Source: Akkermansia muciniphila (GTDB taxonomy: Bacteria; Verrucomicrobiota; Verrucomicrobiia; Verrucomicrobiales; DEV007). From it: a stretch of DNA of 64,000 nucleotides. Positions within the stretch are counted from its first letter, which is position 1. Every line of letters starts with the position of its first letter. The position numbers and the translations under genes are program-made. Shown here piece after piece: positions 4,584-64,000 of the stretch. The notes beneath the pieces were generated by a model. The model saw nothing but the letters and a program-made list of their open reading frames with translations. It did not search any database and was not told where the DNA came from. The stretch is from positions 1-64,000 of the forward strand of contig CAMCXS010000013.1 in NCBI GenBank assembly GCA_945883495.1, written 5' to 3'.

Positions 4584-4595
4584 CCAAGTCCGCGC

Positions 4596-18584: not shown

Positions 18585-18589
18585 CAAGC

Positions 18590-18861: not shown

Positions 18862-19028
18862 GTTGTCTGCTCACCAATCTAAACCAATTCGCGATTTTGA
18901 CATAACTTTTTCTGCGCTGCACGAAAACTCGGAGCTGCTCTGTCGGCGGTGGCCCCAATCCTCGAAGCGGCGGACTCACGGTGGTGGGTCCGCCGCCCCT
19001 TGCCGTCGTGTTTTTATCACAAGAACCC

Positions 19029-19613: not shown

Positions 19614-19627
19614 CGATTTGGAGCGTC

Positions 19628-20215: not shown

Positions 20216-20315
20216 GGCAGTAGGAGTTTAAATGGGGTGCCCCAGTGATTACTTCGTGCATACACCGGTTCCGCGACGAAGCGCAAGCGGCATGTTTGGG
20301 AGGTGAGGCGATTTT

Positions 20316-20735: not shown

Positions 20736-20841
20736 GACGCGGACCCTGTCACAGCTCGGAGTCTCCTGCAAATCCGGGCCGTGCGTTCCGCCGATTGCCA
20801 GAAGCGCCGGTCGAGGGTAGCCTCGGCGCCACCGTTGTTGC

Positions 20842-24818: not shown

Positions 24819-24930
24819 GGCGGAAACGATAGCTGCGAAAGTTCCTATTTGCAGAATTTCTTGAACGAGAGTTAGATCGGCCGCCGGGAGCTGCGTGTTT
24901 TGCAGCACTGGAAGATTCGAAGGAGATTAC

Positions 24931-28137: not shown

Positions 28138-29808
28138 ATGACCGAACAGCCCCAAATCACCATCGGCGCCGATCACGGTGGCGTCGAACTCAAGGATCAA
28201 CTCGTTGCTTGGCTCAAGGCCACCGGCCATCTGGTCAAGGACGTGGGCACGCACGGCAAAGAATCGGTCGATTACCCCGACTTTGCCCAAGACGTGGCTG
28301 ACGCCGTAGCGGGGCATCCAGAGCATCGGGGCATACTGGTTTGCACGTCTGGTATCGGCGTGTGCATCACCGCGAACAAAGTTTCTGGCATCCGCGCCGC
28401 TGTGGTCCACACCGCCAAGCAAGCGGAGATGACCCGTCGCCACAACAACGCCAACGTCGTCTGCCTGAGCGGTTCCGAAACCTCGTTCGAAACCGCCAAG
28501 GAGATCGTCGAGACCTTCATCAAAACGGATTTTGAAGGCGGTCGCCACGAACGCCGCGTTCATAAAATGGAAGGCAAGCCATTGGCGGAGGTCGATCCCG
28601 AAATCTTCGCCGCCATCCGCGCCGAGCGCCGCCGCCAAGCCGACGGCATTGAACTGATCGCTTCCGAGAACTTCGCCAGCGCCGCCGTCATGGAGGCCCA
28701 AGGCTCGTGCCTCACCAACAAATACGCCGAGGGCTACCCCGGCAAGCGCTGGTATGGCGGTTGCGAGAACGTCGATGAAGCCGAGCGGCTCGCCATCGCT
28801 CGCGCGAAGCAGCTTTTCGGCGCGAGATACGCCAACGTGCAGCCACACTCTGGCTCTCAGGCCAATGCCGCCGTCTACTTCGCGACCATCGGGCTGGGCG
28901 ACCGCATCCTTACCATGGATTTGTCCCACGGCGGCCACCTCACCCACGGGCATCCGGCGAACTTCTCCGGTAAGTTTTACGAGGTGAAGCATTACGGTGT
29001 CTCCGCGGAAACTGGCCGGATCGACTACGACCTGCTCGAAGCATCCGCCAAGGAGTTCCAGCCCAAAATGATCACCGCTGGGGCGTCCGCCTATTCCCGG
29101 ATCATCGATTTTCCCCGGATGCGCCAAATCGCGGATTCCGTGGGGGCACTCCTTTTCGTTGATATGGCGCACATCGCGGGCCTGGTCGCCGCTGGGGTCC
29201 ATCCGAGCCCGATGGATCATGCACATGTCGTCACCACCACGACGCACAAGAGCCTGCGGGGGCCGCGCGGAGGTCTGATCCTCACGAACGACGAGGAAAT
29301 GGCCAAGAAACTCGATTCCCTGGTCTTCCCGGGGATCCAGGGCGGGCCGCTCATGCACGTCATCGCGGCCAAGGCGGTCTGTTTTCACGAAGCCCTTCAG
29401 CCGGGGTTCAAGGACTACCAGCAGCAAATCGTGAAGAACTGCCAAGCCTTGGCGAGCCGGATGGTCGGCCACGGCTACAAGCTTCTCTCCGGTGGCACTG
29501 ACAACCACTTGTTCCTGGTCGATCTACGCCCCAACGGTCTCAACGGCAAGACCGCCCAAGAAACGCTCGATGAAGCCGGGATCACGGTGAACAAGAACTC
29601 GATTCCGTTCGATACCGAAAACCCGTTCCGCGGAGGCGGCATCCGCATCGGCACCCCAGCGGTCACTACCCGGGGGATGACGGAAACGGAGATGGAAATC
29701 ATCGGGGATTGGATTCACGAAGCCTTGGCGCATCGCGACGACAAGGCTCGGCTGCATGAGATCCGCGAGCGGGTGGCCAAGCTGAACCGGAACTTCCCCT
29801 TGCCGTAA
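28138..29808 (+). CDS. Fused ribose-5-phosphate isomerase B / serine hydroxymethyltransferase
   Basis: 556 residues in one uninterrupted frame. Residues 1-143 are RpiB: GADHGG near the start, CTSGIG with catalytic Cys69, the [12 protein letters not shown] region, and the family's C-terminal [11 protein letters not shown]. Residues about 144-556 are [24 protein letters not shown], and the PLP lysine Lys371 in [14 protein letters not shown]. RpiB interconverts ribose- and ribulose-5-phosphate; SHMT makes glycine and methylene-THF from serine. The join has no linker: the RpiB end runs straight into [12 protein letters not shown], the normal SHMT start. Met144 has no ribosome binding site, so I expect one fused protein. 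Confidence 0.92.
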
Positions 29809-46605: not shown

Positions 46606-49600
46606 ATGAAATATCGTGCCCCACTTCCGCATCTGCCCCTTGCCCTGAAGCAGACCGTAGCGGCTGTTTTGATTCCGTTGCTGGTGTTGACCGGAAGCCC
46701 CGTTAGTCTCCAAGCGGCGGATTACTATTGGGATCAGGATGGTGACTCTTCCGGAAACGCCCTTAGCGGAACCAACCTCGGTGGGGCTGGCACCTGGGAT
46801 CTGTCCGCATCGGCGTGGTGGGACGGGCTTTCGACCAATCTGGCTTGGCCCAATCTCTCCGACACCGCGATCTTCACCGGAACCGCGGGCACGGTGACCT
46901 TGGGGGAAAACATCACGGCCGGTGGCTTGCGCTTCAACGTCAACGGCTACACCATCGCCCCGAGCACGACGCAAACGCTCACGTTGGCTCCGGCCGCGGG
47001 TTTTGTTTCTCCGGTCATCGCGGTCAACAATACCGGCTTTGGCACCAACGGCGCGACGATTAGCGCCATCCTTGCGGGGACGTCTGGCTTCACCAAGACG
47101 GGGAACGGCACGCTGCGGCTCACGGGCGCCAACACCTTTTCCGGAGATGTTGCGATCAAGGGCGGCAGCATCGTCATCACCAACCCGAATCAACTCGGCA
47201 CGGGGACCACGGCGATTTCCGTGACGGGCGTTGGCCAAACTGGCAACCCGGGCTTTTCCGGAGGCTCTCTCGTCCTTCAGGGCACCGGGACTTCCGCGTT
47301 CGCTGCCGGACTTACGATTGATCGCGAGATCAGCGGTTCTGGCCGTGGCGCCGGTGCCATCAACCAGACCGGTTCCCTCATCAGCATCGGCTACAACACC
47401 TTGGCCGGGGGGCTCACCAATGGCTCCGCGAGTGATTCCCGCGTGTGGGCTTCCCATGGCGCGACCACTGTCACGGGCAACGTGAGCTTGGGATCTGGCA
47501 GCATCGCTGGCTTCCAAGGTAATGGGAACTGGATCATCTCCGGCCGGGTCACTGGCACGGATACAGCCAATGACCGGTTCTTCAAGGCAGGGAACACCGT
47601 TGGGAATGTCCTGTGGCTGCAGAATGCGAACAACAGCTACATGGGATCGCTTCGCATTGAATCCGGCAACGTCCGCGTTCAATCCAACGGCGCTCTCGGT
47701 ATTGGCACCATGGCCCGTTCGTTGGACCTGGAGAACTCCACCGTGGAGTTTCGGACGGATCTCCCGGGCAGCTTCTCCACCCGGAACGTTATGGTCCGGG
47801 CGGATCGCACTGGAGTCCTGTTTCTTGATCACGACATCACTGGGCCTTTGGGGGTCGGCTCTTCTTTGATCAATCAGACCATCACTTTCGGAAACTTCTC
47901 TCGTGCCTCCGGGGGCACGAACTCGACATTCAGCTTCAGCGGGCGCAATGGCTACGGCTTTTCTGCTACGGGAGCGAGTGGTTTGATCGGCGGGGAGAAT
48001 GCCACGCAGGACTTGAGTAACTTCATTTTCACCAACAATAGCAACGGGCTCGGCACTCTCATCGGCAACGCCTGGAACACGAATCAGACCACCCCCCGGA
48101 CGTTCACGGTCGGCGGCAATGCGGAAACGGTGCTCACCGGTAACGTGCTCGCCACCGGAGCCACTCACCATCTCACCAAGTCTGGCACGGGCACTTTCAC
48201 CTACAACGGCACCGCTGGCACTTTTACCGGCAGCACCACCGTGACCGGGACCTTGGCCATCTCTAGCATGAGCGCCCTCAACAGTAGCACGGGCATCGGA
48301 GCGATCCAGTTGAGCAACGGTGCTCTCGACTATCGTGGCATCGGGGATACCTCGAACAGGCTCCTTAATCTTTCTGGGACCACCACCGCCGGGATCATCC
48401 TGGCCAATCAGTCGAGTGGATCCGAGCTGGTCTTCAGCGGGAAGCCCGTGGCGGCTGGTGGCGCTGGGAATAAGCTTTTCTACTTGGGCGGCGATAGCGC
48501 TCCGTCGATCGTCAATGAGATCGGTGGCGTGATCTCGATCAACGGTGGCACCACTGGCTTGTCCAAGGTTGGCAGCAACACTTGGCTCTATTCCCCAGCC
48601 GCTTCCACCTACCTCGGCGGCACCACCCAGACGACCGGGGGTAGTGCCAGCGGCACCAGCACAAATATCATCACTCTGTCCGCGACCAATCCTTCCATCG
48701 TCGTGGGCCAGTCGGTCAGCGGCACGAACGTGCCCGCCGGTTCCGTGGTCATCGGGGTGAACGGCACCACGTTGACCATCAGCAATAATATTGGCACGAC
48801 GGCCATTGCGGCGGGCACCACGCTTACGTTTGGTGGCACCTCGAACTTCACCGGCAACGTCACCGTCAGTGGCGGGACTCTGCAAGTCCGCCCCACCGCA
48901 GCTGCGGGGAATGGCTCGGATGTCATCAACAACTCCAGCCAAGTCATTTTCAACTCTGACGCCCTGCGCGGCAATCAGTGGGCGGGTGGGACCTTCGAAT
49001 ATCTAGGCTCTTCGACGGCGGGAGCCCTCACCGAAACCGTGGGGCTGCTCGCTCCCTCCGCCGGGGCCGGGGTCGTGAAGACCACCGCAAACGGCGGCAG
49101 CCCTATTCTGAGTTTCTCCGGATATACCACGCGTGGCGCTGGTGCCGTGGTGAACTTCCAGCAAGGGACGGGGACAGGCATCCGGTTCTCCGCTGTGCCG
49201 ACTGCGGTTTCGAACGGATTGGTGAGCGGTGCCTTCATCACGGATCCCTCTACCGGCGCCATCGACTTCGTAGCTACCCCAGCGACGAACACGAATCTTG
49301 CCGCATTGGGAGCCGCCACCGCCTTCCCCACCTCCATCGGTGCCGCCACCGGGAATTACCTTCTGAGCGCCGACACCACCACATCTGCCGCAGTTGCTGC
49401 AAACTCGGTTCGGATCACTGGGGGCGCATACCTCACTCTGGGCACGGGTAACCTTACCCTTACCTCGGCGAGTGCCAGTGCCCTGGGCGGGATTCTCCAC
49501 GACAACGCGGGAGGCGCCTCCGTAATCAGTGGGCAAACCATCACCACTTCCGCCTCCAACCAGGAAGTGCTCATCCTCACCGGCGGCACGGGCGGCGCCA

Positions 49601-52600
49601 GCAACACGCTGTCGATCAATTCCATCTTGGGCAACGGCAGCGGGGGGGTCACTAAGGGCGGCAGCGGCACCCTGATCTTGGGCGGCGCGAATACCTACAC
49701 CGGCACCTTGACCATCAATGAAGGGACTGTCCAGCTCGCCGGCTCCGGCACCCTCGGGGCTGCCAATGCCGGGCTGATGATGCGGCAGGGGACGACCCTC
49801 GACCTCAACGGGATCAGTGTGGGAAGCGTATCGGCCAATGGCCTCAACGCATTTAACGGCGCTGGCACCATTACGAACAGTGCAGCCAGTGGCACCGCCA
49901 CTCTCCGTGTGGGCAACAATAACTCGGCTGGCCTTTTCAGCGGCGTGATTCAGGACGGCGCCAACGCTAAGATTCAATTCGCCAAGGCCGGCAGCGGCAC
50001 CGTTTCCCTCACGGGGGCCAACACCTTCTCCGGACCAGTCACTGTGACGGCGGGAACCCTCGCGGTCACCAGTTTGACGAATATCGGGGAGGCCAGTGGC
50101 ATTGGTAAAGGTGATTCCACCAGCGCGGCTACCAACGCGGCCAGCTTGGTGTTCAATGGCGGCACGTTGCAGTACACAGGATCGAATGCGTCCATCTACC
50201 AGACCACCCAGACGCCCTCGGTGAGCATTGACCGCCTGTTCACCCTGGCGGGTAATGGCACCATCCAATCTTCCGGTCAGTACGGGAATAGCATCCTGGC
50301 GGCTGGTAGTGCCAACAACGCTACCCTGATCTGGAACAACACGGCGGACGTCTCCTTCAGCGGCACGGGCACCCGCACCTTGACTTTGGGCGGAAACTCG
50401 ACTGGCGACAACGAGATGCGTATCCGCCTGCGCGACAATCCCAACGCCGGGGAAGCCCTTTCCTTGACCAAGGCGGACGCCGGTCTTTGGATCCTGAATC
50501 CAGCGACTTCCAACACCTACACCGGCACTACCACCGTCTCGGCCGGCTCGCTGCGGGTGGCTAGTTCGGTGGCTGCCGTGCAGGGCCTCTCGACTTCAAG
50601 TCCGCTCGTTCTCAACGGCGGTGTGTTGGAGACCTCCGGCACCTTCTCGCGCACCCTCGGTGCTCCCGTTGCGGGCACTGGAACCACCGTTCAGCTCCCC
50701 GCTGGGACCTCCGGCTTCGCCGCCGCCACTCCTGACCGCCTTGTCGTTACGATCGGCGGAGGCGGGCTCACGTGGGGCAGCACGAACTTCAGTCCATCGG
50801 CGCTAGTCCTTGGCTCCGCCACGGCCCTTGGCGAAACCGAGATCACCAACGACATCAATCTTGGCAGCTCCGCGCGCACCGTCACGGTGAATGCCAACGC
50901 CAACACCGCCACTATGGTCACTGCGGGCATCCTCTCCGGCGTCATTAGTGGAAGCACGGGCGGCGCCCTGACCAAAAACGGCACCGGGGTCCTCATGTTC
51001 GGCAATGCAAACACCTATATTGGGAATACCACGGTGAATGACGGAACTCTGGTGATTACATCGTTTGGCAATTCTAGTGGTACGATCTCGAGCTCTCTGG
51101 GCGCCAGCGGCGGTTCGCTCATCGTCAACCAGAACGCCACCTCCAGTCCTATTCTGTACGTTGGGCCCGGCGAGACCTCATCCCGGCCGCTCGTCTTCCA
51201 AACGGCCCTCTCCGCCAGCCGGACCCACCGTATCGATGCCTCGGGCAGCGGTCCTCTTGTTCTTACCAATGTCACCAATAGCAACACGGGGGCCTTCACC
51301 ATGACGCTGGAGCTTCGCGGATCCAACGTGGACAATAACATGATCACGTCGACCCTGGCAGACAATGGCACCAGCCTTCTGGGGGTTAGCAAAGCGGACG
51401 GCGGGGTCTGGATCCTCAATCCATCTTCAAGCAACACGTTTACAGGTCCAATCAACGCCAACGGCGGCTTGCTGGGCCTCACCACGGCTGGCATTGGCTC
51501 TGCCTCTGCAATCGGCTTCAGCAACGGCGGCATCTTCGCTTATGGCTCCGCGCTGAGCACATCGAAGCCGATCAGCCACGCCAATAACTCAACCGCCGTT
51601 ATCGCCGGTCAGAACAACATCACGCTTGGTGGCACTTGGACTATCGCGTCTGGGGACAACGACCAAACGATCAGCAATAACCTGGAAAACGGGGCTGTGC
51701 TGACCGTGAATGGGAATTTCGTCAACAGCAAGACCAACAACCGCGTGGTCAACGTTCGCGGCTTTGGTTCTACCGTTTGGAACGGCGTGATCCCCAATGC
51801 TTCCAACGGGACCAACACCACCGCCTGGAACATCGCCATCGCCAACGACGCCACCTTCACCTTCGGCGGTTCTTCCGCGAACACCTACACCGGTGCCACG
51901 ACCCTGGCTCAAGGGACGTTGATCCTCAACAAGACGCTTGGCGTGGCCCAAATCGGCACTGGAACCAGTCAGTTCAACTTCGCGGGTGGTGTCCTGCGTT
52001 CCGATGCTGGGGCTCTGACGGGAGCCAACGCTCTCAACAACACCGTCTTCCTTACTGGTGACCCAGCGGTGATCAGTGGCACCAACAGCATCCAAATGGC
52101 CGGGGTGCTTACCAACAGCGCGGGCAATCGGCTCCTGGTGAACAATCTTTCGGGCGGTGGAAATCTCACTCTCTCCGGGAATGTTAGCCTCTCCAACGAC
52201 AACACGGGCCGCACCCTCACGGTTCTCGGGTCCGGGAGCACCACCATTTCTGGCATCGTCCAGAACGGAGGGACGGCCGCGGGAGGTCTCACCTACTCCG
52301 GTAACGGCACCCTCAACCTGGGCGCCGCGAATACCGCCACCGGAACCCTTACGGCGAATCGTGGCACGGTCTCGTTGGGCGGCTCGGGAAGCTGGGCCGG
52401 CGGCATTGCCTTCAATCCTACAGGAACCGTGACGCTCGATTACAGTGGGGGGAACGTCAACCGCTTGGCCGACGCCGGTGCCGTGACTGGCAACGGGGGC
52501 ACGTTGAATTTCATTGGGAATTCCAGCGGGACAAGTGAGACGACTGGAACACTTACCCTCAACACAGCGATGTCCAGCATCGCGATGACTGGAAGCGGCC

Positions 52601-55600
52601 CGAACGTTCTCACGTTCGGTTCGCTCGCGACACCAAACTCGGGATCGTCGCTGGACCTGAGTTCAATCCCCTCGCTTGGATCGACGAACAAAGTGATCTT
52701 TACGGCAGCTCCCACGCTCACCAACAGCATCAACACTCGAATCTTTGTAAACGGTGGGGCGGATTTCGCTACGCACACCGCCAATGGGGTGGAAGCCTTT
52801 ACAGGATACAATAACTCGAATGACCTCAACACGGCGCTCTCCACGGACACGATGAATTTGACGGGATCGGCAGCGACCACCGCAAATCGGACGGTCAACG
52901 CCATCAAGTTGAACGGCACGGGGATTGCCGTGACCGGGGCCGCTTTGAACCGGCTGACTTTGGGAGCTGCCGGGATCCTTAACACGGGCGGCGATAACTC
53001 GATTGGAGTTAACGAAGTGGCCTTTGGTGCGACCACAGGATTCGTCCAAGTCGCATCCGGCACGACACTCACTCTGAACGGCAATATCACCGGTTCGAAC
53101 GGCTGGGCCAAAGTGTTGCCAGGTTCGCTAGCATTTGGAGCTGGAGGGCGTAGCTTCGTTACCGGACTCTCCCACAACGTCCTTGACGGAACCGTCACTC
53201 TCAACGGCGGCGCGGACACCTTCTTCCCGAACCAGCTTGTTGTCGTCAATACCCCTGGGGTCATCGACCTCAATGGCGGCGGACAATATGCCGGAACGCT
53301 GTCCAGCAGTGGCACCCTGCCTTCCGCAGGTGGCACCATCACCAGCACCGGCGGTGTCTTGGTCACCAATAAATCCGCTAGCACCAGCTTTGCGGGAACC
53401 CTTGCGGGCTCCCTCAACTTCGGGAGTGCCGGGGGAAGCACCCTGACCCTCGCCAGCCCACAAACATATACCGGTACGACACTCCTCATGGGCGGCACCA
53501 CCACCTTGGAGAATGACGCCACCCTGCTCAACACCTCCGAGATCAACATCAATGGAGGGTCCACGTTGTTCCTCAGCAACAACACCGGCCTCCAAACCCA
53601 GAACAACAACCGCATTGGCGACGCCATTGCGCTGAACCTCCGTGGAGGCACCGTGAGCGTCACAGGACGCATCAGCACGGCCGCGACGGAGACCTTCGGC
53701 GCGGTGAGCTCTCTTCAGGGAGCCAACACCCTCACCGCCACGACGGGGGGCGGAACGATTACTTCGGTGGATCTCAACTTCGCCAGTCTCACTCGATCTG
53801 CGGGAACTACCGTCAACTTCACGGGAACAAACATCGGTCAGCAGGGTAACAACGCGCGGATCGTCTTCGACACCGCCCCGTCCGTCCTGGGTAGTGGGGT
53901 GTTGGGCGCCTGGGCGATCGCCAACTCGACCGACTACGCAGCCTACAACGCCGGCCTCGGCGTCGGGATCGTTGGCCAAGGGGGATTCACTGGGTACGAT
54001 GGCTCCTTCGGCAGCGGCAACATCACCCTTCTCACGGCTACGTCCGCTACGACGACAAACCTCACCGCGCCGGTCACCACGTCCGCGTTGCTGCGCTTTG
54101 CGGGTGGCTTTAGCAACGACCTGACGTTCGCTGATGCTGGGAACATTTTGAACTTGGAGTTGGGCGGTATCCTCCGGAGCGACAACAACAACAGCACCAC
54201 CATCGGCACCACCTCAGTACCAGGGATCATCACCAGTGGCACCTCGGAACTCGTGGTTTATAACGCCCAGGGGACCACGACGATCAACTCCCAGGTCACC
54301 GGCGCCACTGGCTTGGTGAAGAGCGGGGCGGGCACCCTGGCGCTCAGCAACCTCTCGAACAACTACAGTCTCGGAACGATCGTCTCTCAAGGTACCTTGA
54401 GTCTCACGGGCGGTGCGACCGCTAACGGCACCACCAACGTCGTGATCCCGGCCGGTGGCCTCACCCTCACCAACAGCACCGTGACCATGGCCACGAACGC
54501 GGGCCAGATTCACAATACGAATGCCGTCACCCTGAACGGAGCGTCCACCTTGACGTTGGTGGGCGCGAATACGCTCGATAGCCTCACGTTCAACAACAAC
54601 GGCGGCACCGCCGCCCCGACCGTCACCAGCGGTGGGCTCCTGACCCTTAGCAACGCAACGCCGATCACGGTTTCCTCCAGCAACCCTGCCTTCGTTGCGA
54701 CGATCGCCGGCTCGATTGACATCGGCTCTGGCGCCAAGACGATCAACACCCCCTCGATTCAGGTGGGCGGAGTGACTGTCACCAACTTGGTGCCTACCCT
54801 GTCCATCTCCGCGGCCATTCTGAGCCCGGGCGCATCCATGAACAAGACAGGCGACGGTTTGTTGCAACTTGGCGGAGCCAGCACGTTCTCTGGATTCACT
54901 CTCAGCAATGGTGGGGTGGTGCTTGCCGGAAACAGCAGCCCTACGAGCAGTCCTGGAGCCGGGAGCCTTGCCAGTGGTCCGTTGGGAATTGGCTCCGTGA
55001 GTGTGGCTTCTGGCACCACCATCCTTGCGAGTGCCAGCAACACCATCGCCAACCCCATCACTTTCGCGGGCACTCCTACGTTTGACAGCACCGCGAATAC
55101 GGCCTGGACCTTGACATTCAATGGACCGATCAGCGGCCTGAGCTCAACCCCCACCGTCCAGGTCACCAATCCAGGTCTCACCGTCAACTTGGCCGGCAAC
55201 ATCCCCGGTCCGTTCTCCAGCATCACCAAGACCGGGCTGGGCGCGCTCATTTTCAACGCGACCAACTACACCGGGAATTTCAATGCCGCTGCCCTCGGCA
55301 ATGCCGCCGCCGTTACCCTGCTTCATGATGGAGACACCACCAGTTCGGTGCAGACCCTGAGCGTCGGCGATGTCGTCTTTGATGCGGGCATTGTCCCGAG
55401 CATCACCGTCAACCGCGGGGGCACCACCTTGGCGGCCAACAAGATCATCGCCCCGGCATCGATCTCCAATCTGGGGCTTGGTATCACGGTGACCAATAGC
55501 AGTGGATACGGCTTGCAAGTCTCGGAAGCTGTGACGCTGACGGGGACCTCTATCGGCGTCGGAACCGCCACCGGCTCAAATGTGACCCAGGGGCTCTACC

Positions 55601-58600
55601 TCTCGGGCGTTCTCAGCGGCACCGGATTCGCCAAAACCGGTGCCGGCGCGGTTGTTCTCGGCAATGCGAGCAATAGCTTTACCGGCAACATCAACATCAA
55701 CCAAGGGGTGGTTTCTGCCGTCGGCAATGCCCAACTGGGGAATGCGGCAAACATCATCCAACTCAATCCCACCACCGGCACATCGACGTTCCGGGCGACT
55801 GGCACCTACACTCTCGCCAATCCGCTTCAGCTCTCCAACACGGCCAACACCCGCGCCATTGAGGTGACCGGAGGCAATGCCTTGACCCTCAACACGGCTT
55901 TCGACCTGAACGCTGGCGCCGGAAATACCGCCGGTTTGACCAAGGCTGACAACGGCACCCTGCTGCTTTCCGCCGACAACAGCGCCGCCTGGGCCGGCGC
56001 TCTCACCATCAGCCAAGGGGCGGTCGAAGTCGGCCACAACGGTGCCCTCGGAACCACCGCCGGAAATACCGTAGTCAGCGCCAGCGGGGCTGCTCTGCGT
56101 CTCCCTGCCGGCTTCTCCGTGGCGGACCCCCTTAGTCTGAGCGGCACGGGCATTCTGACGGGCGGTGCCCTTCAGGGAACTGGATCAGGAACATCGACCG
56201 CATCGGGTGCCATCACTTTGGCAGGGGCAGCCGCCATCGGCGCGGATGCCGGGAATACCTTGAATCTCACCGGTGGCATTTCCGGTGCCCAGGCGTTGAC
56301 CTTCGCCGGGGCGGGGAACATCAATCTCACCGGCTCCGCGCTCGGAGCGGTTAGCTCAGTGACCAAGATCGGATCCGGCACGACTACCCTTGGGGTCGCC
56401 AGCAGCGGTTTCGTCGGCGCACTGAACGTCAACCGTGGCACGTTTGTCCTCGGCTCCGCAGGGGTTGGCTCCGTGGGTGCCACCGGCTTGATCACGGTCA
56501 ACCAAAGCGGCACCCTGACGGTGAATAACACCACTGGGCCGGTCACCCGCTGGACCAATCGCGGGGTCACGTTGGCTGGCGGCACGCTGAACTACAACAC
56601 CAGCAGCGCCTCTCCATTCGTCGATGCCAATACCAGTGCCCTGACCTTGAATTCCGGGGCCAACGTCATCAACATGACCAATGGTGGTGGCTCTACCACC
56701 GAGATGCGGTTTGCCTCCCTCGCGTTCGGCGCGGGTGCCTCGGGCAACTTGATTGGGCTCTCTCCCTCTAGTAACCTCATCCGCTTCACCACCACTCCGG
56801 CCTTGACTCCGGCAACGACGGGCATCTTCCCGCGTCTGACGGTCAATGGCAGTGAGTTCGCCACCTACAACGGCACCGGGATCACCGGCAGCGGCATCGT
56901 TCCCTTCACCGCCTACGCGGCGGCGACAAACGTGCTTAGCGCGGGTCCCACTCAAACGTATCTGGCGACGGCGGCGAAGTCGAATTCACTGACCGGAAAC
57001 CAGACCCTGAACGCCCTCACCTTGGAGAGCGGTCCGCTGGTTGGCAATGTGCCGAATGTGGGCGGGCTCGGCGGCCTTAATCCCACCACCCTTACGCTCA
57101 CCAGCGGAGCTATCCTCGTCCGTGGCAGCGGTGTCGGCACGACTTCCGCCCTTTCCGTTCCGATTGTGGCTCTGGGCGCGACCGAAGGCGTGATCCACGT
57201 CGCTTCCGGCCAAGCCCTCAACGTCACCAGCGCTTTCAGCGGCACTGGCGGAATGACCAAGGCGCTTCCGGGCACCCTCAATCTAAACCAGCAACAGTAT
57301 GTCACGGGGACCACGACCGTGAACAACGGCACGCTGAAGCTCCAATCCGGAGCCACCAACACCTTGTTCTTCAACAATAACCTCACGGTCAACACGGGCG
57401 GCGTTGTGGACTTAATGAACGGGAGCCAGTTCATCGCCAACCTCGCCAGCCAAGGCGCAGGGGCTGGGGCCGATGTTGGGGGCGGCATCATCACCAACAG
57501 CGGTGCGCAGGCAACCTTGGTGACAAACGCGAACTCAAGCTTCGGGGGCTCGATTCAAGGAACCATCTTCCTCAACAAGACGGGAACCAGCACGCTTACG
57601 CTGACCAACCCTCAAACCTATTCTGGCGCCACTCTGATCAGCGGCGGTACTGTCACACTTAACGACTCAGGGGCCTTGAGCAACACGTCTGGAATCGATA
57701 TCAACTTCGGCGGCCTCGCCCTGACTAACACAGGTTTGGTGGACAGCGGAGACCGTGTCCCCAGCGTGCCCATCTCTCTGCGCGGCGGCATCATCACTCT
57801 CAACGGTCGGACCCAGACCAACTCCAGCGAAACCCTGGGCGCCTTGACGCTCGTCGATGGCCACAGCCAGATCGTCAACGCCAACGGTGGCACGGGCATC
57901 AACTCCTCGACCCTCACCTTCGGCTCACTGACTCGCTCCGGTTCATCGGCCACCGTTCGCTTCGCCAGCAATAACACTACAGTGGGAACGATTGGCAGCA
58001 ATGCCCGCACCTTCTTCACCACCGCGCCAACTTTGACCAACAACATCATTGGACCCTGGGCCATTATCGACCGGGAGTTTGCCAGCTATGATTCGAATTA
58101 CGGGGTGGGCGCCCTGAACCAGACCGGCTTCCCGGGTTACTCCGCCCTGGGCTTGAATACCGGGGCGACGGCCTCCGACAATGTGCGTTTCACCGCTACC
58201 GGGACCACCACGTTGGCGGGCAATACGTCCGTCAATACGCTCACATTCGGTCAACAGGCCTCAGCCACCACCCTGAATCTCGGCGGGAATACCCTCACCA
58301 TCGCTGGCGGCGGTCTGCTCTTTGGACAAGCAACGGACAACGTCAACTTCGGCATCACCAACGGGAACCTGACTGGTCCATCCGGCGGAGGGGATCTCTT
58401 CATCCACCACGGGAACTACTCGGGCACCAACCGGACCGCCTCAATCGATGCCGCGATTGTCGATAACGGCGGCGCGATTCGGGTCATCAAGAGCTCGGGT
58501 GACACGGGCGCGAGCGTGATGACGCTGAACGGAACGAACACCTACACGGGCGGAACCGTGATCAACATGGGCACGTTGGTCCTGGGGGCGACCTCCACCC

Positions 58601-61600
58601 TCGGCTCGGGTGGGATCACCGTGAATCAGGGCACCCTCACGCAGACCGCTGGGGCGATCATTCCTTCCCAGCTGCTCACCCTGGGCGGCGGTTCCACCGT
58701 GACTCTGGCTGGCAACAACTCCCTAAGCGGAATTACCGTGAACAACTTGGGCGGCGCCGCTCCAACGTTGACCCCCACCGGCACCTTGACCCTGACCGGC
58801 GGAATCACCGCGACGACCTCCAATGCTGGAGCCGTCGCCACCATCGGCACGGGGACACTTGATCTCAATGGCGCGAGTGCCTATTCCATCAGCGTCGGTC
58901 AGACCCTCGTCAACGGTATTGACGTGGCTCCGTGGCAAGCGGGTCTCATCATCAACTCCGTCATCACCAACGGAGGCATCAGCAAGTCTGGCGACGGCAT
59001 TCTTCAATTGGGCGGAGCCAGCACCTTCTCCGGCGGCGTGGAGATCAGCAGCGGAGGGTTGATCATCGCCGCGGACACAAACTCCACGGTCCTTGGGGAC
59101 CCGGTTGTCACCGGCCCGGTCGGGACGGGAACGCTTACGGTCGGAGCCAACACCACGGTGCTCGCCGGCGGCGCGGCGCGGACGATCACAAACAACGTTG
59201 TCTTCTCCGGCGACACCGTCTTCAACGGCATCAATAACCTGACCTTCAACGGCGTCACGACCTTGCCTTCGGTTTGGAACGCGACGGTGACCGCTCCACA
59301 AATGACCGTGACGATTGGGGATGCCAGTGGGTCACTCTCCACTGATGAAATCAACAAGTCCGGGCTCGGAATCCTCTCCGTCGGCAGTTACAACGGCACA
59401 ATCAATGCCACGGGCGGCCTCCTCTTCAGCGCGGACGGAAACACACTGGGCACCCAGGAAAGCCTTGTTCTCGGATCCAATATCAACATCACCGGCGACA
59501 CCGCAGTCACCGTGAATCGCTCCGGCGGTGCGCCGAATGCCCGCAACAAGGTCCTCCAACAAAATACGTTGACCAATGGTGGAAGTATCATGTCCGTCTC
59601 CAATCAAAGCGGGTATGGACTGGAGTTCACTGGAACCACAACTCTCAACGGAGCCTCCCACTTTGCTGTCGGAACCGCCACGGCCTCCAACGTGGTACCG
59701 GGCCTCATCCTGAGCGGCGTGGTCTCTGATGCGGGTGGATATGATCTCACCAAGTCAGGCCCAGGCACCTTGGTTTTGGGCAATTCCGGCAACACCTTTG
59801 GGGGCTCAGGCAAAGTGATTGACATTCTCGGGGGGATTGTGGCCGCCGGTTCGGACGGTGCATTAGGCGATTCCGGCAACCAGATTCGTCTCAATGCCGA
59901 TGCCACCACGGGCGCAGGCTTCCGGGCCACGGGGTCGTTTGCCACGGATCGCACGTTCGTGCTCAATCAGCCCAATAATGCCATTGAGGTGAGCGCCGGT
60001 TACATGTTGGAACTCGACCAGCCTTTCTCCGTGACCACCGCCACCAATGCGTTGAACAAGAACGACAATGGCGTGGTCGCGATTGATGCGGACAACACGG
60101 GCTGGACGGGAGCCGTCAACATCAACGCGGGAGCCGTCCGCGCCAAACAAGCCAACGCACTTGGCTCGGGCACGGTGACCATCGCCGCCCCTGCCTCCGG
60201 CGCGGCGTTGCAGTTGGAGAACGCCTCCCTGAGCAATCCCATCGCAATCACGGTGTCCGCGGACAGCGTGACAGCGGGCGGGATGAACAACGGCGGCGCG
60301 ATTCAAAGTGTGGCTGGCTCCAACTCCGTGAACGGCGCGATCACGGTCACTGGAGCGCCGGGAGCCGATAACGTGTCGAGGAACGTCACCTTGGGCGCGG
60401 ATTCCGGCGCGTCCCTGAACATCGCCGGTGGAGTGACGGTGAACCACGCGTCTGGCGGGACCGGACGCTCGATGACACTCTTCTTGGCGGGCGCGGGCAA
60501 CGGGACCCTCTCTTCCTCCGTGACCAACTTGGCGGGCTCTCCGGGCACGTTCACCGTGAACAAGATCGGGTCTGGGACCTGGAGCATCAACACCTCGAAC
60601 GCAGTGCCCGCGGCGGCTGTCGCCGTCAGTGGAGGGGCATTGAACATTTCCGGCACGGGGAACACACTTTCCACGGCTTCCACGACCGCCGTGACGGTAA
60701 ATGCCAACGGCACGCTGAACATCACGGACAGCGGAACCGCTGCGGCCCGCCTCGGTGGTCGTCCGGTGACGCTGCAAGGCGGGACTGTCAACTACACCGG
60801 GAACAGCGCTGGCTCCTCGGAAACCTTGGGCGCGCTCACCTTCAACCGCATGGGAGGCGTCTTCTCCAGCACGCAGACCAGCGGCGGAAATGTGGCGCTC
60901 ACCTTTGCCAGCTTGACGTTCGGCACCGATGGATCGGCGAACTTCCAAGGCACGAACCTTGGGACCGCCAGCAACCGGATTCTCTTCACCACTGCACCGA
61001 CGCTTGTCCCAGCATCCACGGGAATTCTCGCCCGCGCTACGGTGAACGGGGCGGATTTTGCCACCTATGGGGCCACCAATGGAATCGCGGCGTTCACCGC
61101 TTACCAAAATAGCAACAATCCGAACACCGCCGCCGCCACGGACACGATGAACCTGACGGCCAATGCCGCGTTGACCGCCAACCGCACCTTGAACGCCGTG
61201 AAGATCAATGGTTCTTCCGCAGTGACCCTCGGCGGAGCAGCCTTTAATCAGCTCACCCTTACCTCAGGCGGGGTCCTCGCCACGGGCGCGGCCACTCACG
61301 TGATCAACGTGCCAGTGATCGCCAACGCCGCCGTGCAGAGCGTCTACCATGTGGATTCTGGTTCCAGCCTGAGCCTGCAAAGCACCCTGACTGGAACCGC
61401 CGGTCTGGTGAAGGACGGCGCTGGCACCTTGATCGTTTCCTCTCCCGCTTCGATCACCGGGCTTTCCGGGGTGAATGGAAACACCCTCACGGGGAACACG
61501 GTTATCGCCCGCGGCACGGTCCAGCTCAACGGTGGCCGCAACACCTTGACTCCGGGGAACTTCATCGTCATGGGCGGTCCTGGTGCCACGCTCGATCTGA

Positions 61601-64000
61601 ATGGGAACTCGCAGCAAATTTCTGGCTTCATGACGGACACCACCGCTCCAGGTTCTGGCGGTATCGTCACCAACACCTCGGGCACGACGGCCCAACTGAT
61701 CATAAACCAGGATAACGCCGGACGGACCTTTGCGGGTTCGCTGACCGGGCTCCTGAACTTTGTGCGCTCCGGGCAGAACACGCTGACGCTGCCATCCGCC
61801 AGCAGCTTCACCGGCACCACATCGATCATTGGCGGCACCACGACCCTCGCGAGCGATGGCGCCTTCACCGGCACTTCCTCCATCGACATCAACTACGCCA
61901 CCCTCACCCTCGATAACAACGCCGGGTTCAACGGCCTCGCTGACCGCATCAACGACTCGGCGGCGGTCACCATGCGCGGCGGCACCCTGATCTTCCAGGG
62001 CCGTGCCCAGACAGCCTCCACGGAAACCATCGGCGCTGTGATTCTGCAAGAGGGACAATCCGCCATCAGCTCGGTCGTCGGGGGGACCGGAGTGAACTCC
62101 GCCGACCTCACGCTTACCAGCCTCACTCGGGTGACCGGCGGAGGGACCGTGAACTTTACTGCGGCTACCGGCGGCCAGATTGGAAGCAGCTCGCGCATCC
62201 TCATTCCGACCATCAATGGCAACTCGACGGCTACTCTTGGCGGAGGTTTGAGCAACGGGATCATCGGGGGTTGGGCGACGATCGGGACCACCGACTTCGC
62301 GACCTATGTTCCTGGTCTCGGCATTGCGGCCATGGGGTCGTCCGGCGCGTTGCCCTACTCGAACGCCAACTCGAACGCCACCACGCTGAATACCGCGACC
62401 AGCACGGATAACATCAGCATCAACGCCGCCGTCGGCACGATTCCCGTAACCAACGACACGACGATCAACAGCCTGCGCATGGGGAATGTCGCCTCAAACA
62501 CCGTCGCGATCGCAGCGGGCAAGACGCTGACATTGACCAGTGGAGGTCTGCTCTTCTTCAGCAGCGCTACCCAGACGATCGGTAGCGCGGTGAATCAGGG
62601 CAACTTGACCACGACGGGACCGGAATTGTTCGTTTATGCCCAGGGCACCGGTCCACAGGTGATCAACAGCGTCATTTCGGGATCAGGGGTTGCCCTTGTG
62701 AAGACCGGCGGCAATGCCCTCACTCTGAACGGCACGAATACCTACGACGGCGGCACCACGGTGCAACAAGGCACCCTCACCATCGGCACCACCGGCAACA
62801 TTCCGCTGGCCTCTAATCCGGCGAACGGCCTGACGATCAATGGCGGCACCGTGACTCTGAGCGCTGCGGGATCGATCGATTCAGGCAACATCGTCACGAT
62901 TAACGATGGAGGGACTCTGAACCTTTACGGAAACAACACCCTGGCTGGCTTGGTCTTTAACAACACCGGCGGCACGACGACGCCCTCGGCGAATAGCTTC
63001 GTTGCCCCGACCGCCACGGTAACGGGTGGTTCCAACGGCGTGCTCACCATCGGTTCCTCAGGCATCACAGCGACCTCAATGAACGTCGCCACCACCAGTC
63101 AGGTGGGTGGTAGGGTCGACTTTGGCAGCTCGTCGAACACGATCAATGTGGCTCCGATCACGGTCAACGGGATCAATGCGGCCCCGCTCCAAGCCACCCT
63201 TGCCTTGCAAGGCGTTGTAGGATCCGCCGGTGGCATCACCAAGTCTGGCAACGGCGTGCTTCAATTCAACGCTCCAACCGTTTACACCGGCCCAACCACC
63301 GTTTCCGCAGGTGGCATTCGCGCCGGTGTGGCCAATGCCGGGTCGCGGTTCTCCGCGCTTACGCTCAATTCCGGGACCTATCTGAACCTTGCTGGCGTCA
63401 ATTCGCTGTGGGGATCGCTAGCCGGGTCCGGCTCCGTCCTCAACAGCAGTGCGACCAACGCCACCCTGATTGTCGGCTTTGACAATACGGACAGCTCGTT
63501 CGGCGGTCAGTTGGTGCGATTCAACGACGCGGCGCTCAATGGCACAGCGCTCCAAAAGATCGGCACCGGCACGCAGTCGATGACGTCCGCGCAAAACTTC
63601 GCCACCGGCACCACCGGGACGGTGACCGTGAGCGGCGGTGTGCTCCGGTATGTGGATGATGGCAAGGCGTTCCCCGGCGTCACCGGAGCTGGCGGGACCT
63701 TTACGGTTCAACCCAATGCCACCTTGGCGCTTGATAACTCTGGAACCGCCAACGTGAACAATCGTTTGGGCGCAAACGCCAATGGCACGCTGAACTTGGG
63801 CGGCAAGCTGACGGTCAACGGCTCCTCCACGGCTTCCACGCCCACGACGGAGGCGATCACCACCGTCGCCGTCACGAATGGCTCCGGCCGGATCGAACTG
63901 ACGCCAAACGCGGCCAACCCATTGACCTTGGCCATCACGACGCTGAGCGGGCAGAACAGCAACGGTTCGGCGGTGTTCGCCGGGATCACCGGTGCCGCCT
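46606..64000 (+). CDS. Giant autotransporter-associated beta-strand-repeat protein (3' end outside)
   Basis: The frame starts at the ATG at 46606 with a signal peptide (LKQTVAAVLIPLLVLTGSPV then SLQAAD) and I found no stop to the window edge: at least 5798 codons. The protein is a long series of Gly/Thr/Asn-rich beta-helix repeats of the PATR type, for example GTLRLTGANTFSGDVAIKGG (near 47112), GTLILGGANTYTGTLTINEG (near 49668), GVLQFNAPTVYTGPTTVSAG (near 63256). Longer modules with FTTAPTLTN...GWA...FA.Y wording recur. This is a secreted, surface or outer-membrane passenger protein, probably an adhesin or sheath. The C-terminal anchor (autotransporter barrel or sorting signal) lies beyond the window. 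Confidence 0.9.
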   Translation, partial: MKYRAPLPHLPLALKQTVAAVLIPLLVLTGSPVSLQAADYYWDQDGDSSGNALSGTNLGGAGTWDLSASAWWDGLSTNLAWPNLSDTAIFTGTAGTVTLGENITAGGLRFNVNGYTIAPSTTQTLTLAPAAGFVSPVIAVNNTGFGTNGATISAILAGTSGFTKTGNGTLRLTGANTFSGDVAIKGGSIVITNPNQLGTGTTAISVTGVGQTGNPGFSGGSLVLQGTGTSAFAAGLTIDREISGSGRGAGAINQTGSLISIGYNTLAGGLTNGSASDSRVWASHGATTVTGNVSLGSGSIAGFQGNGNWIISGRVTGTDTANDRFFKAGNTVGNVLWLQNANNSYMGSLRIESGNVRVQSNGALGIGTMARSLDLENSTVEFRTDLPGSFSTRNVMVRADRTGVLFLDHDITGPLGVGSSLINQTITFGNFSRASGGTNSTFSFSGRNGYGFSATGASGLIGGENATQDLSNFIFTNNSNGLGTLIGNAWNTNQTTPRTFTVGGNAETVLTGNVLATGATHHLTKSGTGTFTYNGTAGTFTGSTTVTGTLAISSMSALNSSTGIGAIQLSNGALDYRGIGDTSNRLLNLSGTTTAGIILANQSSGSELVFSGKPVAAGGAGNKLFYLGGDSAPSIVNEIGGVISINGGTTGLSKVGSNTWLYSPAASTYLGGTTQTTGGSASGTSTNIITLSATNPSIVVGQSVSGTNVPAGSVVIGVNGTTLTISNNIGTTAIAAGTTLTFGGTSNFTGNVTVSGGTLQVRPTAAAGNGSDVINNSSQVIFNSDALRGNQWAGGTFEYLGSSTAGALTETVGLLAPSAGAGVVKTTANGGSPILSFSGYTTRGAGAVVNFQQGTGTGIRFSAVPTAVSNGLVSGAFITDPSTGAIDFVATPATNTNLAALGAATAFPTSIGAATGNYLLSADTTTSAAVAANSVRITGGAYLTLGTGNLTLTSASASALGGILHDNAGGASVISGQTITTSASNQEVLILTGGTGGASNTLSINSILGNGSGGVTKGGSGTLILGGANTYTGTLTINEGTVQLAGSGTLGAANAGLMMRQGTTLDLNGISVGSVSANGLNAFNGAGTITNSAASGTATLRVGNNNSAGLFSGVIQDGANAKIQFAKAGSGTVSLTGANTFSGPVTVTAGTLAVTSLTNIGEASGIGKGDSTSAATNAASLVFNGGTLQYTGSNASIYQTTQTPSVSIDRLFTLAGNGTIQSSGQYGNSILAAGSANNATLIWNNTADVSFSGTGTRTLTLGGNSTGDNEMRIRLRDNPNAGEALSLTKADAGLWILNPATSNTYTGTTTVSAGSLRVASSVAAVQGLSTSSPLVLNGGVLETSGTFSRTLGAPVAGTGTTVQLPAGTSGFAAATPDRLVVTIGGGGLTWGSTNFSPSALVLGSATALGETEITNDINLGSSARTVTVNANANTATMVTAGILSGVISGSTGGALTKNGTGVLMFGNANTYIGNTTVNDGTLVITSFGNSSGTISSSLGASGGSLIVNQNATSSPILYVGPGETSSRPLVFQTALSASRTHRIDASGSGPLVLTNVTNSNTGAFTMTLELRGSNVDNNMITSTLADNGTSLLGVSKADGGVWILNPSSSNTFTGPINANGGLLGLTTAGIGSASAIGFSNGGIFAYGSALSTSKPISHANNSTAVIAGQNNITLGGTWTIASGDNDQTISNNLENGAVLTVNGNFVNSKTNNRVVNVRGFGSTVWNGVIPNASNGTNTTAWNIAIANDATFTFGGSSANTYTGATTLAQGTLILNKTLGVAQIGTGTSQFNFAGGVLRSDAGALTGANALNNTVFLTGDPAVISGTNSIQMAGVLTNSAGNRLLVNNLSGGGNLTLSGNVSLSNDNTGRTLTVLGSGSTTISGIVQNGGTAAGGLTYSGNGTLNLGAANTATGTLTANRGTVSLGGSGSWAGGIAFNPTGTVTLDYSGGNVNRLADAGAVTGNGGTLNFIGNSSGTSETTGTLTLNTAMSSIAMTGSGPNVLTFGSLATPNSGSSLDLSSIPSLGSTNKVIFTAAPTLTNSINTRIFVNGGADFATHTANGVEAFTGYNNSNDLNTALSTDTMNLTGSAATTANRTVNAIKLNGTGIAVTGAALNRLTLGAAGILNTGGDNSIGVNEVAFGATTGFVQVASGTTLTLNGNITGSNGWAKVLPGSLAFGAGGRSFVTGLSHNVLDGTVTLNGGADTFFPNQLVVVNTPGVIDLNGGGQYAGTLSSSGTLPSAGGTITSTGGVLVTNKSASTSFAGTLAGSLNFGSAGGSTLTLASPQTYTGTTLLMGGTTTLENDATLLNTSEININGGSTLFLSNNTGLQTQNNNRIGDAIALNLRGGTVSVTGRISTAATETFGAVSSLQGANTLTATTGGGTITSVDLNFASLTRSAGTTVNFTGTNIGQQGNNARIVFDTAPSVLGSGVLGAWAIANSTDYAAYNAGLGVGIVGQGGFTGYDGSFGSGNITLLTATSATTTNLTAPVTTSALLRFAGGFSNDLTFADAGNILNLELGGILRSDNNNSTTIGTTSVPGIITSGTSELVVYNAQGTTTINSQVTGATGLVKSGAGTLALSNLSNNYSLGTIVSQGTLSLTGGATANGTTNVVIPAGGLTLTNSTVTMATNAGQIHNTNAVTLNGASTLTLVGANTLDSLTFNNNGGTAAPTVTSGGLLTLSNATPITVSSSNPAFVATIAGSIDIGSGAKTINTPSIQVGGVTVTNLVPTLSISAAILSPGASMNKTGDGLLQLGGASTFSGFTLSNGGVVLAGNSSPTSSPGAGSLASGPLGIGSVSVASGTTILASASNTIANPITFAGTPTFDSTANTAWTLTFNGPISGLSSTPTVQVTNPGLTVNLAGNIPGPFSSITKTGLGALIFNATNYTGNFNAAALGNAAAVTLLHDGDTTSSVQTLSVGDVVFDAGIVPSITVNRGGTTLAANKIIAPASISNLGLGITVTNSSGYGLQVSEAVTLTGTSIGVGTATGSNVTQGLYLSGVLSGTGFAKTGAGAVVLGNASNSFTGNININQGVVSAVGNAQLGNAANIIQLNPTTGTSTFRATGTYTLANPLQLSNTANTRAIEVTGGNALTLNTAFDLNAGAGNTAGLTKADNGTLLLSADNSAAWAGALTISQGAVEVGHNGALGTTAGNTVVSASGAALRLPAGFSVADPLSLSGTGILTGGALQGTGSGTSTASGAITLAGAAAIGADAGNTLNLTGGISGAQALTFAGAGNINLTGSALGAVSSVTKIGSGTTTLGVASSGFVGALNVNRGTFVLGSAGVGSVGATGLITVNQSGTLTVNNTTGPVTRWTNRGVTLAGGTLNYNTSSASPFVDANTSALTLNSGANVINMTNGGGSTTEMRFASLAFGAGASGNLIGLSPSSNLIRFTTTPALTPATTGIFPRLTVNGSEFATYNGTGITGSGIVPFTAYAAATNVLSAGPTQTYLATAAKSNSLTGNQTLNALTLESGPLVGNVPNVGGLGGLNPTTLTLTSGAILVRGSGVGTTSALSVPIVALGATEGVIHVASGQALNVTSAFSGTGGMTKALPGTLNLNQQQYVTGTTTVNNGTLKLQSGATNTLFFNNNLTVNTGGVVDLMNGSQFIANLASQGAGAGADVGGGIITNSGAQATLVTNANSSFGGSIQGTIFLNKTGTSTLTLTNPQTYSGATLISGGTVTLNDSGALSNTSGIDINFGGLALTNTGLVDSGDRVPSVPISLRGGIITLNGRTQTNSSETLGALTLVDGHSQIVNANGGTGINSSTLTFGSLTRSGSSATVRFASNNTTVGTIGSNARTFFTTAPTLTNNIIGPWAIIDREFASYDSNYGVGALNQTGFPGYSALGLNTGATASDNVRFTATGTTTLAGNTSVNTLTFGQQASATTLNLGGNTLTIAGGGLLFGQATDNVNFGITNGNLTGPSGGGDLFIHHGNYSGTNRTASIDAAIVDNGGAIRVIKSSGDTGASVMTLNGTNTYTGGTVINMGTLVLGATSTLGSGGITVNQGTLTQTAGAIIPSQLLTLGGGSTVTLAGNNSLSGITVNNLGGAAPTLTPTGTLTLTGGITATTSNAGAVATIGTGTLDLNGASAYSISVGQTLVNGIDVAPWQAGLIINSVITNGGISKSGDGILQLGGASTFSGGVEISSGGLIIAADTNSTVLGDPVVTGPVGTGTLTVGANTTVLAGGAARTITNNVVFSGDTVFNGINNLTFNGVTTLPSVWNATVTAPQMTVTIGDASGSLSTDEINKSGLGILSVGSYNGTINATGGLLFSADGNTLGTQESLVLGSNINITGDTAVTVNRSGGAPNARNKVLQQNTLTNGGSIMSVSNQSGYGLEFTGTTTLNGASHFAVGTATASNVVPGLILSGVVSDAGGYDLTKSGPGTLVLGNSGNTFGGSGKVIDILGGIVAAGSDGALGDSGNQIRLNADATTGAGFRATGSFATDRTFVLNQPNNAIEVSAGYMLELDQPFSVTTATNALNKNDNGVVAIDADNTGWTGAVNINAGAVRAKQANALGSGTVTIAAPASGAALQLENASLSNPIAITVSADSVTAGGMNNGGAIQSVAGSNSVNGAITVTGAPGADNVSRNVTLGADSGASLNIAGGVTVNHASGGTGRSMTLFLAGAGNGTLSSSVTNLAGSPGTFTVNKIGSGTWSINTSNAVPAAAVAVSGGALNISGTGNTLSTASTTAVTVNANGTLNITDSGTAAARLGGRPVTLQGGTVNYTGNSAGSSETLGALTFNRMGGVFSSTQTSGGNVALTFASLTFGTDGSANFQGTNLGTASNRILFTTAPTLVPASTGILARATVNGADFATYGATNGIAAFTAYQNSNNPNTAAATDTMNLTANAALTANRTLNAVKINGSSAVTLGGAAFNQLTLTSGGVLATGAATHVINVPVIANAAVQSVYHVDSGSSLSLQSTLTGTAGLVKDGAGTLIVSSPASITGLSGVNGNTLTGNTVIARGTVQLNGGRNTLTPGNFIVMGGPGATLDLNGNSQQISGFMTDTTAPGSGGIVTNTSGTTAQLIINQDNAGRTFAGSLTGLLNFVRSGQNTLTLPSASSFTGTTSIIGGTTTLASDGAFTGTSSIDINYATLTLDNNAGFNGLADRINDSAAVTMRGGTLIFQGRAQTASTETIGAVILQEGQSAISSVVGGTGVNSADLTLTSLTRVTGGGTVNFTAATGGQIGSSSRILIPTINGNSTATLGGGLSNGIIGGWATIGTTDFATYVPGLGIAAMGSSGALPYSNANSNATTLNTATSTDNISINAAVGTIPVTNDTTINSLRMGNVASNTVAIAAGKTLTLTSGGLLFFSSATQTIGSAVNQGNLTTTGPELFVYAQGTGPQVINSVISGSGVALVKTGGNALTLNGTNTYDGGTTVQQGTLTIGTTGNIPLASNPANGLTINGGTVTLSAAGSIDSGNIVTINDGGTLNLYGNNTLAGLVFNNTGGTTTPSANSFVAPTATVTGGSNGVLTIGSSGITATSMNVATTSQVGGRVDFGSSSNTINVAPITVNGINAAPLQATLALQGVVGSAGGITKSGNGVLQFNAPTVYTGPTTVSAGGIRAGVANAGSRFSALTLNSGTYLNLAGVNSLWGSLAGSGSVLNSSATNATLIVGFDNTDSSFGGQLVRFNDAALNGTALQKIGTGTQSMTSAQNFATGTTGTVTVSGGVLRYVDDGKAFPGVTGAGGTFTVQPNATLALDNSGTANVNNRLGANANGTLNLGGKLTVNGSSTASTPTTEAITTVAVTNGSGRIELTPNAANPLTLAITTLSGQNSNGSAVFAGITGAA
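52435..63400 (+). repeat. Higher-order repeat of about 4.15 kb inside the giant gene
   Basis: Equivalent protein segments recur at a spacing of about 4.1-4.25 kb: the AFTGYNNSND/AFTAYQNSNN segment (near 52790, 56890, 61085), the GRISTAATETFGA/GRTQTNSSETLGA/GRAQTASTETIGA segment (near 53665, 57805, 61998) and the NKTGDGLLQLGGAST/SKSGDGILQLGGAST/TKSGNGVLQF segment (near 54840, 58980, 63240). Divergence is high but the order is kept, so three super-units appear to stand in tandem. Confidence 0.6.

Follow-up and report, generated by a model that had tools for sequence, protein, structure and literature searches.

The stretch of DNA analysed here (the window, 64,000 nucleotides) ends inside a very long open reading frame, and it raises the question of how a bacterial gene of this size was assembled from repeated blocks, how old those blocks are, and what the encoded protein might do. 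The frame is open from position 46,543 to the end of the window, with the first ATG that suits a secreted protein at 46,606, and the sequence-only reading had described it as a gene of more than 17.4 kb without its 3′ end. This description holds: contig C13 extends 11,880 bases past the window and the frame stops at C13:69534, giving a gene of 22.9 kb (C13:46606-69534, forward strand) and a protein of 7,642 aa when the frame is read past the window end. At this length it lies above the 5-kb giant-gene threshold quoted in PMC5177795.

Block architecture of the giant gene

Judged by eye from the translation, the N-terminus of the giant protein is hydrophobic and resembles a signal peptide (MKYRAPLPHLPLALKQTVAAVLIPLLVLTGSPVSLQA). 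Short repeats score over the curated cut-offs along its length, both for PATR (PF12951; 107.2 and 71.5 bits in the two window pieces and 59.8 bits in aa 6705-7642, cut-off 27) and for TIGR02601 (120.8 and 96.3 bits in the window pieces, cut-off 19.85). PATR was the only Pfam family in the pieces scanned (aa 1-5797 and aa 6705-7642), and no catalytic domain was found in them.

As whole-protein BLAST of the giant protein against itself returned only the full-length self match, 400-residue windows were used instead. These gave 55 separate matches, the strongest series lying at offsets of 1,371-1,405 residues (best pieces 170, 159, 157, 149 and 129 bits, 37-39% identity) and 2,765-2,787 residues (best piece 194 bits, 43% identity); two residue-shuffled versions of the protein gave zero self-matches at E ≤ 1e-3. 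The super-unit repeat previously proposed at an offset near 1,380 residues is thereby confirmed, and a unit profile places its copies at aa 1891-3275, 3248-4646 and 4647-5930 (~52.28-56.43, 56.35-60.54 and 60.54-64.4 kb), within ~0.3 kb of the boundaries first read near 52.4-56.5, 56.5-60.8 and 60.8-64 kb. The repeat has two parts, a core (~975 aa) and a linker (~400 aa). An eight-core model, with four cores each from this gene and a paralogue on contig C7 of the same genome, placed a fourth core whole, where the first profile (built from units 1-3) had caught it only from model position 228. The block order is core1-link1-core2-link2-core3-core4, with the following features on C13:

46606..64000 (+): giant gene, part within the window; open frame, PATR and TIGR02601 over cut-offs in both window pieces
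48805..50394 (+): core0, a faint partial core (aa 734-1263; model positions 7-536); core model, 59 bits
52285..55188 (+): core1 (aa 1894-2861); core model, 1,046 bits
55228..56352 (+): linker1 (aa 2875-3249); linker model, 595 bits, and linker tree
56353..59316 (+): core2 (aa 3250-4237); core model, 1,092 bits, and predicted structure
59356..60543 (+): linker2 (aa 4251-4646); linker model, 685 bits, and predicted structure
60550 to about 63525-63546 (+): core3, without a linker after it (aa 4649-5640); core model, 1,092 bits
63547-66708 (+): core4 (aa 5648-6701), of which 63547..64000 lies inside the window; core model, 880-902 bits

Only blocks 1 and 2 show the ~1,380-aa period; core4 begins ~1,000 aa after core3 does. 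The idea that the whole 1,380-residue block is the repeating unit is accordingly right for blocks 1 and 2, in which core and linker recur together, but not for copies 3 and 4, which are cores without a linker. The fourth unit that was to be looked for beyond the window does exist, but it starts inside it (C13:63547), ~1,000 aa after core3 rather than 1,380. A diverged tail on unit 3 was considered and dropped, as unit 3 has no linker and the next element is core4. A faint core0-like match occurs at the equivalent place in three of the four orthologues from family f4 (G029, G033 and G052, with G037C1 unlisted).

Relatives and the age of the duplications

Among 57 genomes of the order, the source genome included, 23 have a match to the core model at E ≤ 1e-10. 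The closest parallels are four proteins of family f4, G029 (7,512 aa), G033 (8,017 aa), G037 (7,942 aa) and G052 (8,110 aa), which repeat the order and spacing of the giant protein and end in PEP-CTERM-like tails. A scan of named genomes yielded 22 loci, eight of which (L053-L060) carry core-linker-core-linker in the same order within the fetched DNA, L053 and L055 being repeats of G052 and G033, respectively. In a larger draw of the order the linker model matched 36 of 386 genomes at E ≤ 1e-40, and by our reading of the match table two full linkers ~4.1-4.3 kb apart in one frame occur in eight of the 386 (G000, G029, G033, G037, G052, G302, G373 and G379). In a phylum-wide sample, 27 of 240 genomes had some linker match at E ≤ 1e-15, mostly partial, and on the same kind of table reading only the source genome had two full linkers spaced as on C13. 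The distribution of the giant gene is patchy.

Chthoniobacter flavus Ellin428 has two copies: in one (L056, ctg69) the frame from 440 is 4,655 residues long and terminates where linker2 begins, reflecting either a draft error or a broken gene, and the second (L058, ctg65) stays open as far as the DNA was fetched.

Genomes may hold several members of the wider family, with four frames in G037 and two in the source genome, where the C13 gene is accompanied by the paralogue on C7. A still longer open frame lies on contig C8:

C7:51262-86292 (-): C7 paralogue, an 11,677-residue frame (loci L014-L015); core and linker models
C8:30191-85978 (-): 18,596-residue open frame (loci L010-L013)

Near the N-terminus of the C7 paralogue a single linker precedes four cores, and the tail of this protein is PEP-CTERM like that of C13 (TIGR02595, 22.9 bits). 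An 11,601-residue frame, G045:C24, shares its layout, and a linker-like stretch at G156:C2:43657-44556 (minus strand) lies within a 17,232-residue open frame in a 2.3-Mb genome (8 contigs) from the same class. The C8 frame matches itself with 43-69% identity at offsets of ~5,160-5,260, 6,290-6,400 and 11,520-11,640 residues, as if it comprised three tandem blocks of 5-6 thousand residues, super-units far larger than those of the C13 gene; within its first 3,000 residues, TIGR02601 repeats occur together with an N-terminal match to LEPR-XLL.

In a tree of 41 cores, positions 1 to 4 each form one group (SH-aLRT 100, 100, 99 and 99), and the four position groups appear again in a tree of 81 cores. 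Linkers 1 and 2 likewise each form one clade (bootstrap/SH-aLRT 99/97 and 100/99). Cores at the same position in different genomes share on average 54.4% identity (40 pairs, 43.8-66.8), and cores within one protein only 33.8% (30 pairs, 28.0-40.6), which is the reverse of the relation expected of a tandem repeat homogenised by concerted evolution. By these sequence comparisons, cores and linkers have diverged by position without sign of homogenisation. Since the clades of core positions 1-4 and linkers 1-2 extend across genomes, the copies predate the spread of the gene into these lineages: either they arose before the lineages separated, or the gene was transferred whole once they were in place. 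A sister relation between positions 1 and 2 (support 100 in the 41-core tree) was lost in the larger tree, and we therefore make no claim on the order of duplication.

Recent growth in the source lineage by tandem duplication of a 1,380-residue block, which the tandem layout, the offsets near 1,380 and the varying number of blocks in the wider family (one core-plus-linker block fewer in L061, more in L062 and L070) might suggest, is already contradicted by the separate position clades and by the identities given above, and we regard it as hardly credible. Growth by block duplication followed by divergence, as originally envisaged, can thus be retained for blocks 1 and 2 but not as a recent event, because the position clades span genomes.

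Segment histories and host relationships

Full-length identity is similar for all pairs of five such proteins (49.5-56.9%), but the nearest partner of each changes from one stretch to the next. At aa 3151-3300, G000 shares 70% identity with G052 and only 38-41% with the other three, while in the same interval G033 matches G037 at 75% and G052 at 34%; at aa 1651-1800 the relation is inverted, with G033-G052 at 73% and G033-G037 at 40%. We divided a nine-protein alignment of 6,052 columns into 20 segments of 300 residues and compared splits with ultrafast bootstrap values of at least 95. Well-supported trees conflicted in 84 of the 190 segment pairs. A column-shuffled control gave 0/190 conflicts, but it also carried fewer supported splits (0.5 against 1.6 per segment) and is consequently a weak control of low power; one simulation on the single best tree gave 0/190 conflicts with 2.9 supported splits per segment. 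For rpoB, cut into four segments, none of the six pairs conflicted, and the rpoB group uniting the four f4 genomes and L060 was supported in three of four rpoB segments and in none of the 20 giant-gene segments. The conflicting segments span nearly the whole gene and involve hosts as distant as 53% in rpoB. Such conflicting segment histories among species require recombination, whether across lineages or among paralogues handed on afterwards.

The similarity of the giant genes does not follow that of their hosts, as giant-gene and rpoB similarity are uncorrelated (Spearman 0.09, 36 pairs; 725 of 2,000 permutations as high). The source genome and a genome of the same genus (G011) share 97% identity in rpoB and 47% in the giant gene over 2,039 comparable positions, although the G011 copy is truncated by a contig end and has extra N-terminal sequence, and may for these reasons be a paralogue. 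At the other extreme, the copy on a 1.11-Mb contig of a metagenome-assembled genome (MAG) named Pirellula (L057) is as close to that of the source genome as are Verrucomicrobiaceae copies, with 54-56% identity where rpoB has 53%. This gene is complete, with a 7,330-residue frame and a VPEP...RRRKKRR tail. The tetranucleotide composition of its contig correlates with that of the MAG's rpoB contig (r 0.93-0.98 among all pieces, against 0.75-0.80 with the source genome). PF07596, which we take to be a family marking Planctomycetes, has six matches in this MAG, one of them on the L057 contig, and none in the four other genomes searched. We judge a crossing of the gene between phyla likelier than a misleading MAG name. 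The 21.9-kb contig of L059 and other small MAG contigs bear only weakly on the question of host. Host phylogeny can evidently be a poor predictor of such genes, with 47% identity where rpoB has 97% (for a same-genus copy that is incomplete and may be paralogous) and 56% where rpoB has 53%.

The mosaic could instead have arisen among paralogues within each genome, by gene conversion followed by loss or inheritance, with no exchange between species. The presence of several family members per genome fits this view, as does the placement of core1 of the G037 paralogue T3 within the position-1 clade. Against it, the Pirellula-named MAG has a complete gene in the same order that is as similar to that of the source genome as the f4 copies are, and L054 and L057, whose hosts bear different names, have segments in common with identities reaching 89% over 150 residues. 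We consider an origin confined to paralogues unlikely, yet deserving real weight. It is improbable that the gene has a single history, with faulty alignment or uneven rates producing the conflict: strongly diverged repeats of biased composition do align poorly, and several alignment rows deviate in letter make-up, but the flips in identity are abrupt and large, as in the drop of G033-G037 from 75% to 40%, and the one-tree simulation produced no conflict.

Our tentative proposal, advanced at somewhat less than even confidence, is that the gene is one member of a common pool of recombining alleles for giant surface fibres in the Verrucomicrobiota and at least one lineage of Planctomycetota, in which selection fixes the order of blocks and segments are exchanged between species, orders and phyla. 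If so, the pool would be a system of surface diversification that trades stretches of a giant beta-solenoid as its units, each strain presenting a new combination.

Fold, C-terminal signal and possible function

AlphaFold2 models of core2 (19 sequences; mean pLDDT 88.6, pTM 0.89) and linker2 (11 sequences; mean pLDDT 83.0, pTM 0.87) are both all-beta. In VIA-align comparisons TibA (Z 13.0, rmsd 4.4, 268 aligned), EspP (12.8, 5.1, 324), pertactin (12.4, 4.9, 294) and the self-associating protein 4kh3 (12.1, 4.2, 260) tie as the nearest neighbours of core2, and a region of the S-layer protein RsaA also appears (Z 8.1 and 7.6). The nearest to linker2 are a metagenomic beta-helix (Z 14.3, rmsd 4.3, 273 aligned) and UpaB (13.6, 6.5, 307), and one of its many beta-helix alignments is with the SRRP solenoid of L. 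reuteri (5nxk, Z 10.4). Foldseek returned nothing for core2 at E ≤ 0.001, PHROGs had no matches for core2 or linker2, and a PDB sequence search aligned short stretches only, the best being IcsA (4.9e-9 over 72 profile positions). The arrangement of strands, together with the structural neighbours, leads us to read both core and linker as predicted beta-solenoids. AlphaFold2 is reported to over-predict solenoids for perfect repeats (PMC11795689); the repeats of the giant protein are diverse, unlike perfect repeats.

At the C-terminus, where an anchor was to be looked for, the protein ends in a PEP-CTERM signal, a hydrophobic stretch followed by a basic tail. The C13 tail scores 22.9 bits with TIGR02595 (cut-off 16), and all six tails tested pass this model (22.9-29.6 bits). 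With the Pfam model PF07589 (cut-off 20.7) it fails, at 9.9 and 12.3 bits; among the six tails only that of G037 passes (24.9), two f4 tails coming nearest to it at 19.9 and 19.5. Because it exceeds the cut-off of TIGR02595, the NCBIfam model of the same signal, we file the tail as PEP-CTERM with this Pfam reservation. An exosortase scores over the cut-off in 13 of 15 genomes, G063 having none and the source genome only a fragment:

C44:73-288 (-): exosortase-like fragment (L019) at a contig end, model positions 3-65 of 254; 24.2 bits against a cut-off of 25.7

This is probably the exosortase gene of the source genome, cut by the assembly.

Taken with the histories above, these features lead us to infer, with slightly better than even confidence, that the product is an exosortase-processed giant adhesin or matrix fibre, an old fixed architecture diversified by segment-wise recombination. 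The protein would be exported by its putative Sec signal and fold into a very long beta-solenoid rod. Processing by an exosortase at the PEP-CTERM end would leave the rod held on, or freed from, the outer surface, where it may work as an adhesin or as a component of matrix or flocs. The fixed frame would keep the fibre's length and function constant and reshuffling would alter the surface it exposes, as might be expected under pressure from phage, grazers or rivals, or for kin recognition. The suggested role in adhesion or flocculation has a parallel in PepA, a PEP-CTERM protein reported to act in floc formation (PMC9850573), and the adhesin-like label given to the protein by the sequence-only reading is plausible.

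A different role, as a structural component of the envelope (a sheath or an S-layer-like coat) or as a contact weapon, seems to us rather unlikely, although giant proteins of the PVC group have been read as cell-wall-degrading weapons (PMC12057145) and RsaA is among the structural neighbours of core2. The pieces scanned with Pfam contain PATR alone and no catalytic domain, and the structures nearest to core2 come from adhesin and protease passengers. A classical type V autotransporter passenger, as the PATR and TIGR02601 repeats and the passenger-like fold might suggest, is very improbable, as Pfam detected no beta-barrel family in aa 6705-7642 (E ≤ 1) or aa 1-5797 (E ≤ 0.001) and the end of the protein matches PEP-CTERM.

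The adhesin or matrix-fibre reading can be set beside several known systems. PATR proteins (PF12951/TIGR02601) share the short repeat, but those models span 30-32 positions, whereas here the repeats are nested in a conserved ~975-aa core and ~400-aa linker in fixed order. With the PEP-CTERM/exosortase substrates described by Haft et al. 2006 (PMC1569441), where the signal was first noticed in Verrucomicrobium spinosum, the giant protein shares an N-terminal signal-like stretch, a C-terminal PEP motif, a hydrophobic segment and a basic cluster; it differs in its 7,642 residues and in the contig-end fragment that represents exosortase in its own genome. PepA (PMC9850573) is likewise a PEP-CTERM surface product, and the tails examined here match the NCBI PepA model weakly, below threshold, although at 261 positions that model is about thirty times shorter than the giant protein. 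The giant genes of Planctomycetes described in PMC5177795, quoting Reva and Tummler 2008, are also longer than 5 kb, probably encode surface proteins and come from the same superphylum; the text available to us gives their numbers and sizes, whereas the C13 gene is compared here on block architecture, orthology and recombination.

The nearest published case that we have seen is the Giant1-5 set of Apilactobacillus kunkeei (PMC12863079), very large surface proteins with beta-solenoid domains for which domain exchange between two genera and recombination tracts have been reported. There, a single N-terminal solenoid domain, followed by an alpha-helical rod, is exchanged, whereas the C13 gene has several solenoid blocks in fixed order and conflict along nearly its whole length. 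The Giant1-5 solenoid is related to serine-rich-repeat-protein adhesins; the modelled parts of the C13 protein (core2 and linker2) are all-beta. Within the open-licence literature available to us we found no published description of a mosaic giant gene of fixed order, and what differs here from Giant1-5 is the multi-block solenoid, the order fixed in distant hosts and the breadth of conflict along the gene. Giant surface genes are usually deemed strain-specific, repetitive and hard to compare. A 23-kb gene with position-by-position counterparts in other families makes such evolution readable, from duplications through kept order to mosaic exchange, and offers a natural recombinant series with which to probe recognition by the exposed face of a beta-solenoid fibre.

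Elsewhere in the window, positions 16221-26490 (forward strand) encode an alginate-export family protein and two glycosyltransferases, perhaps an exopolysaccharide locus, which would fit the tie between PEP-CTERM and exopolysaccharide described in PMC1569441. Two genes upstream of the giant gene and on the same strand side, a 3,346-residue frame (29915-39952, forward strand) combines subtilase, lamin-tail, RCC1 and immunoglobulin-like domains. At 28138-29805 (forward strand), an RpiB/LacAB isomerase domain (residues 7-144) and a whole serine hydroxymethyltransferase (residues 149-526) share one frame of 556 residues.
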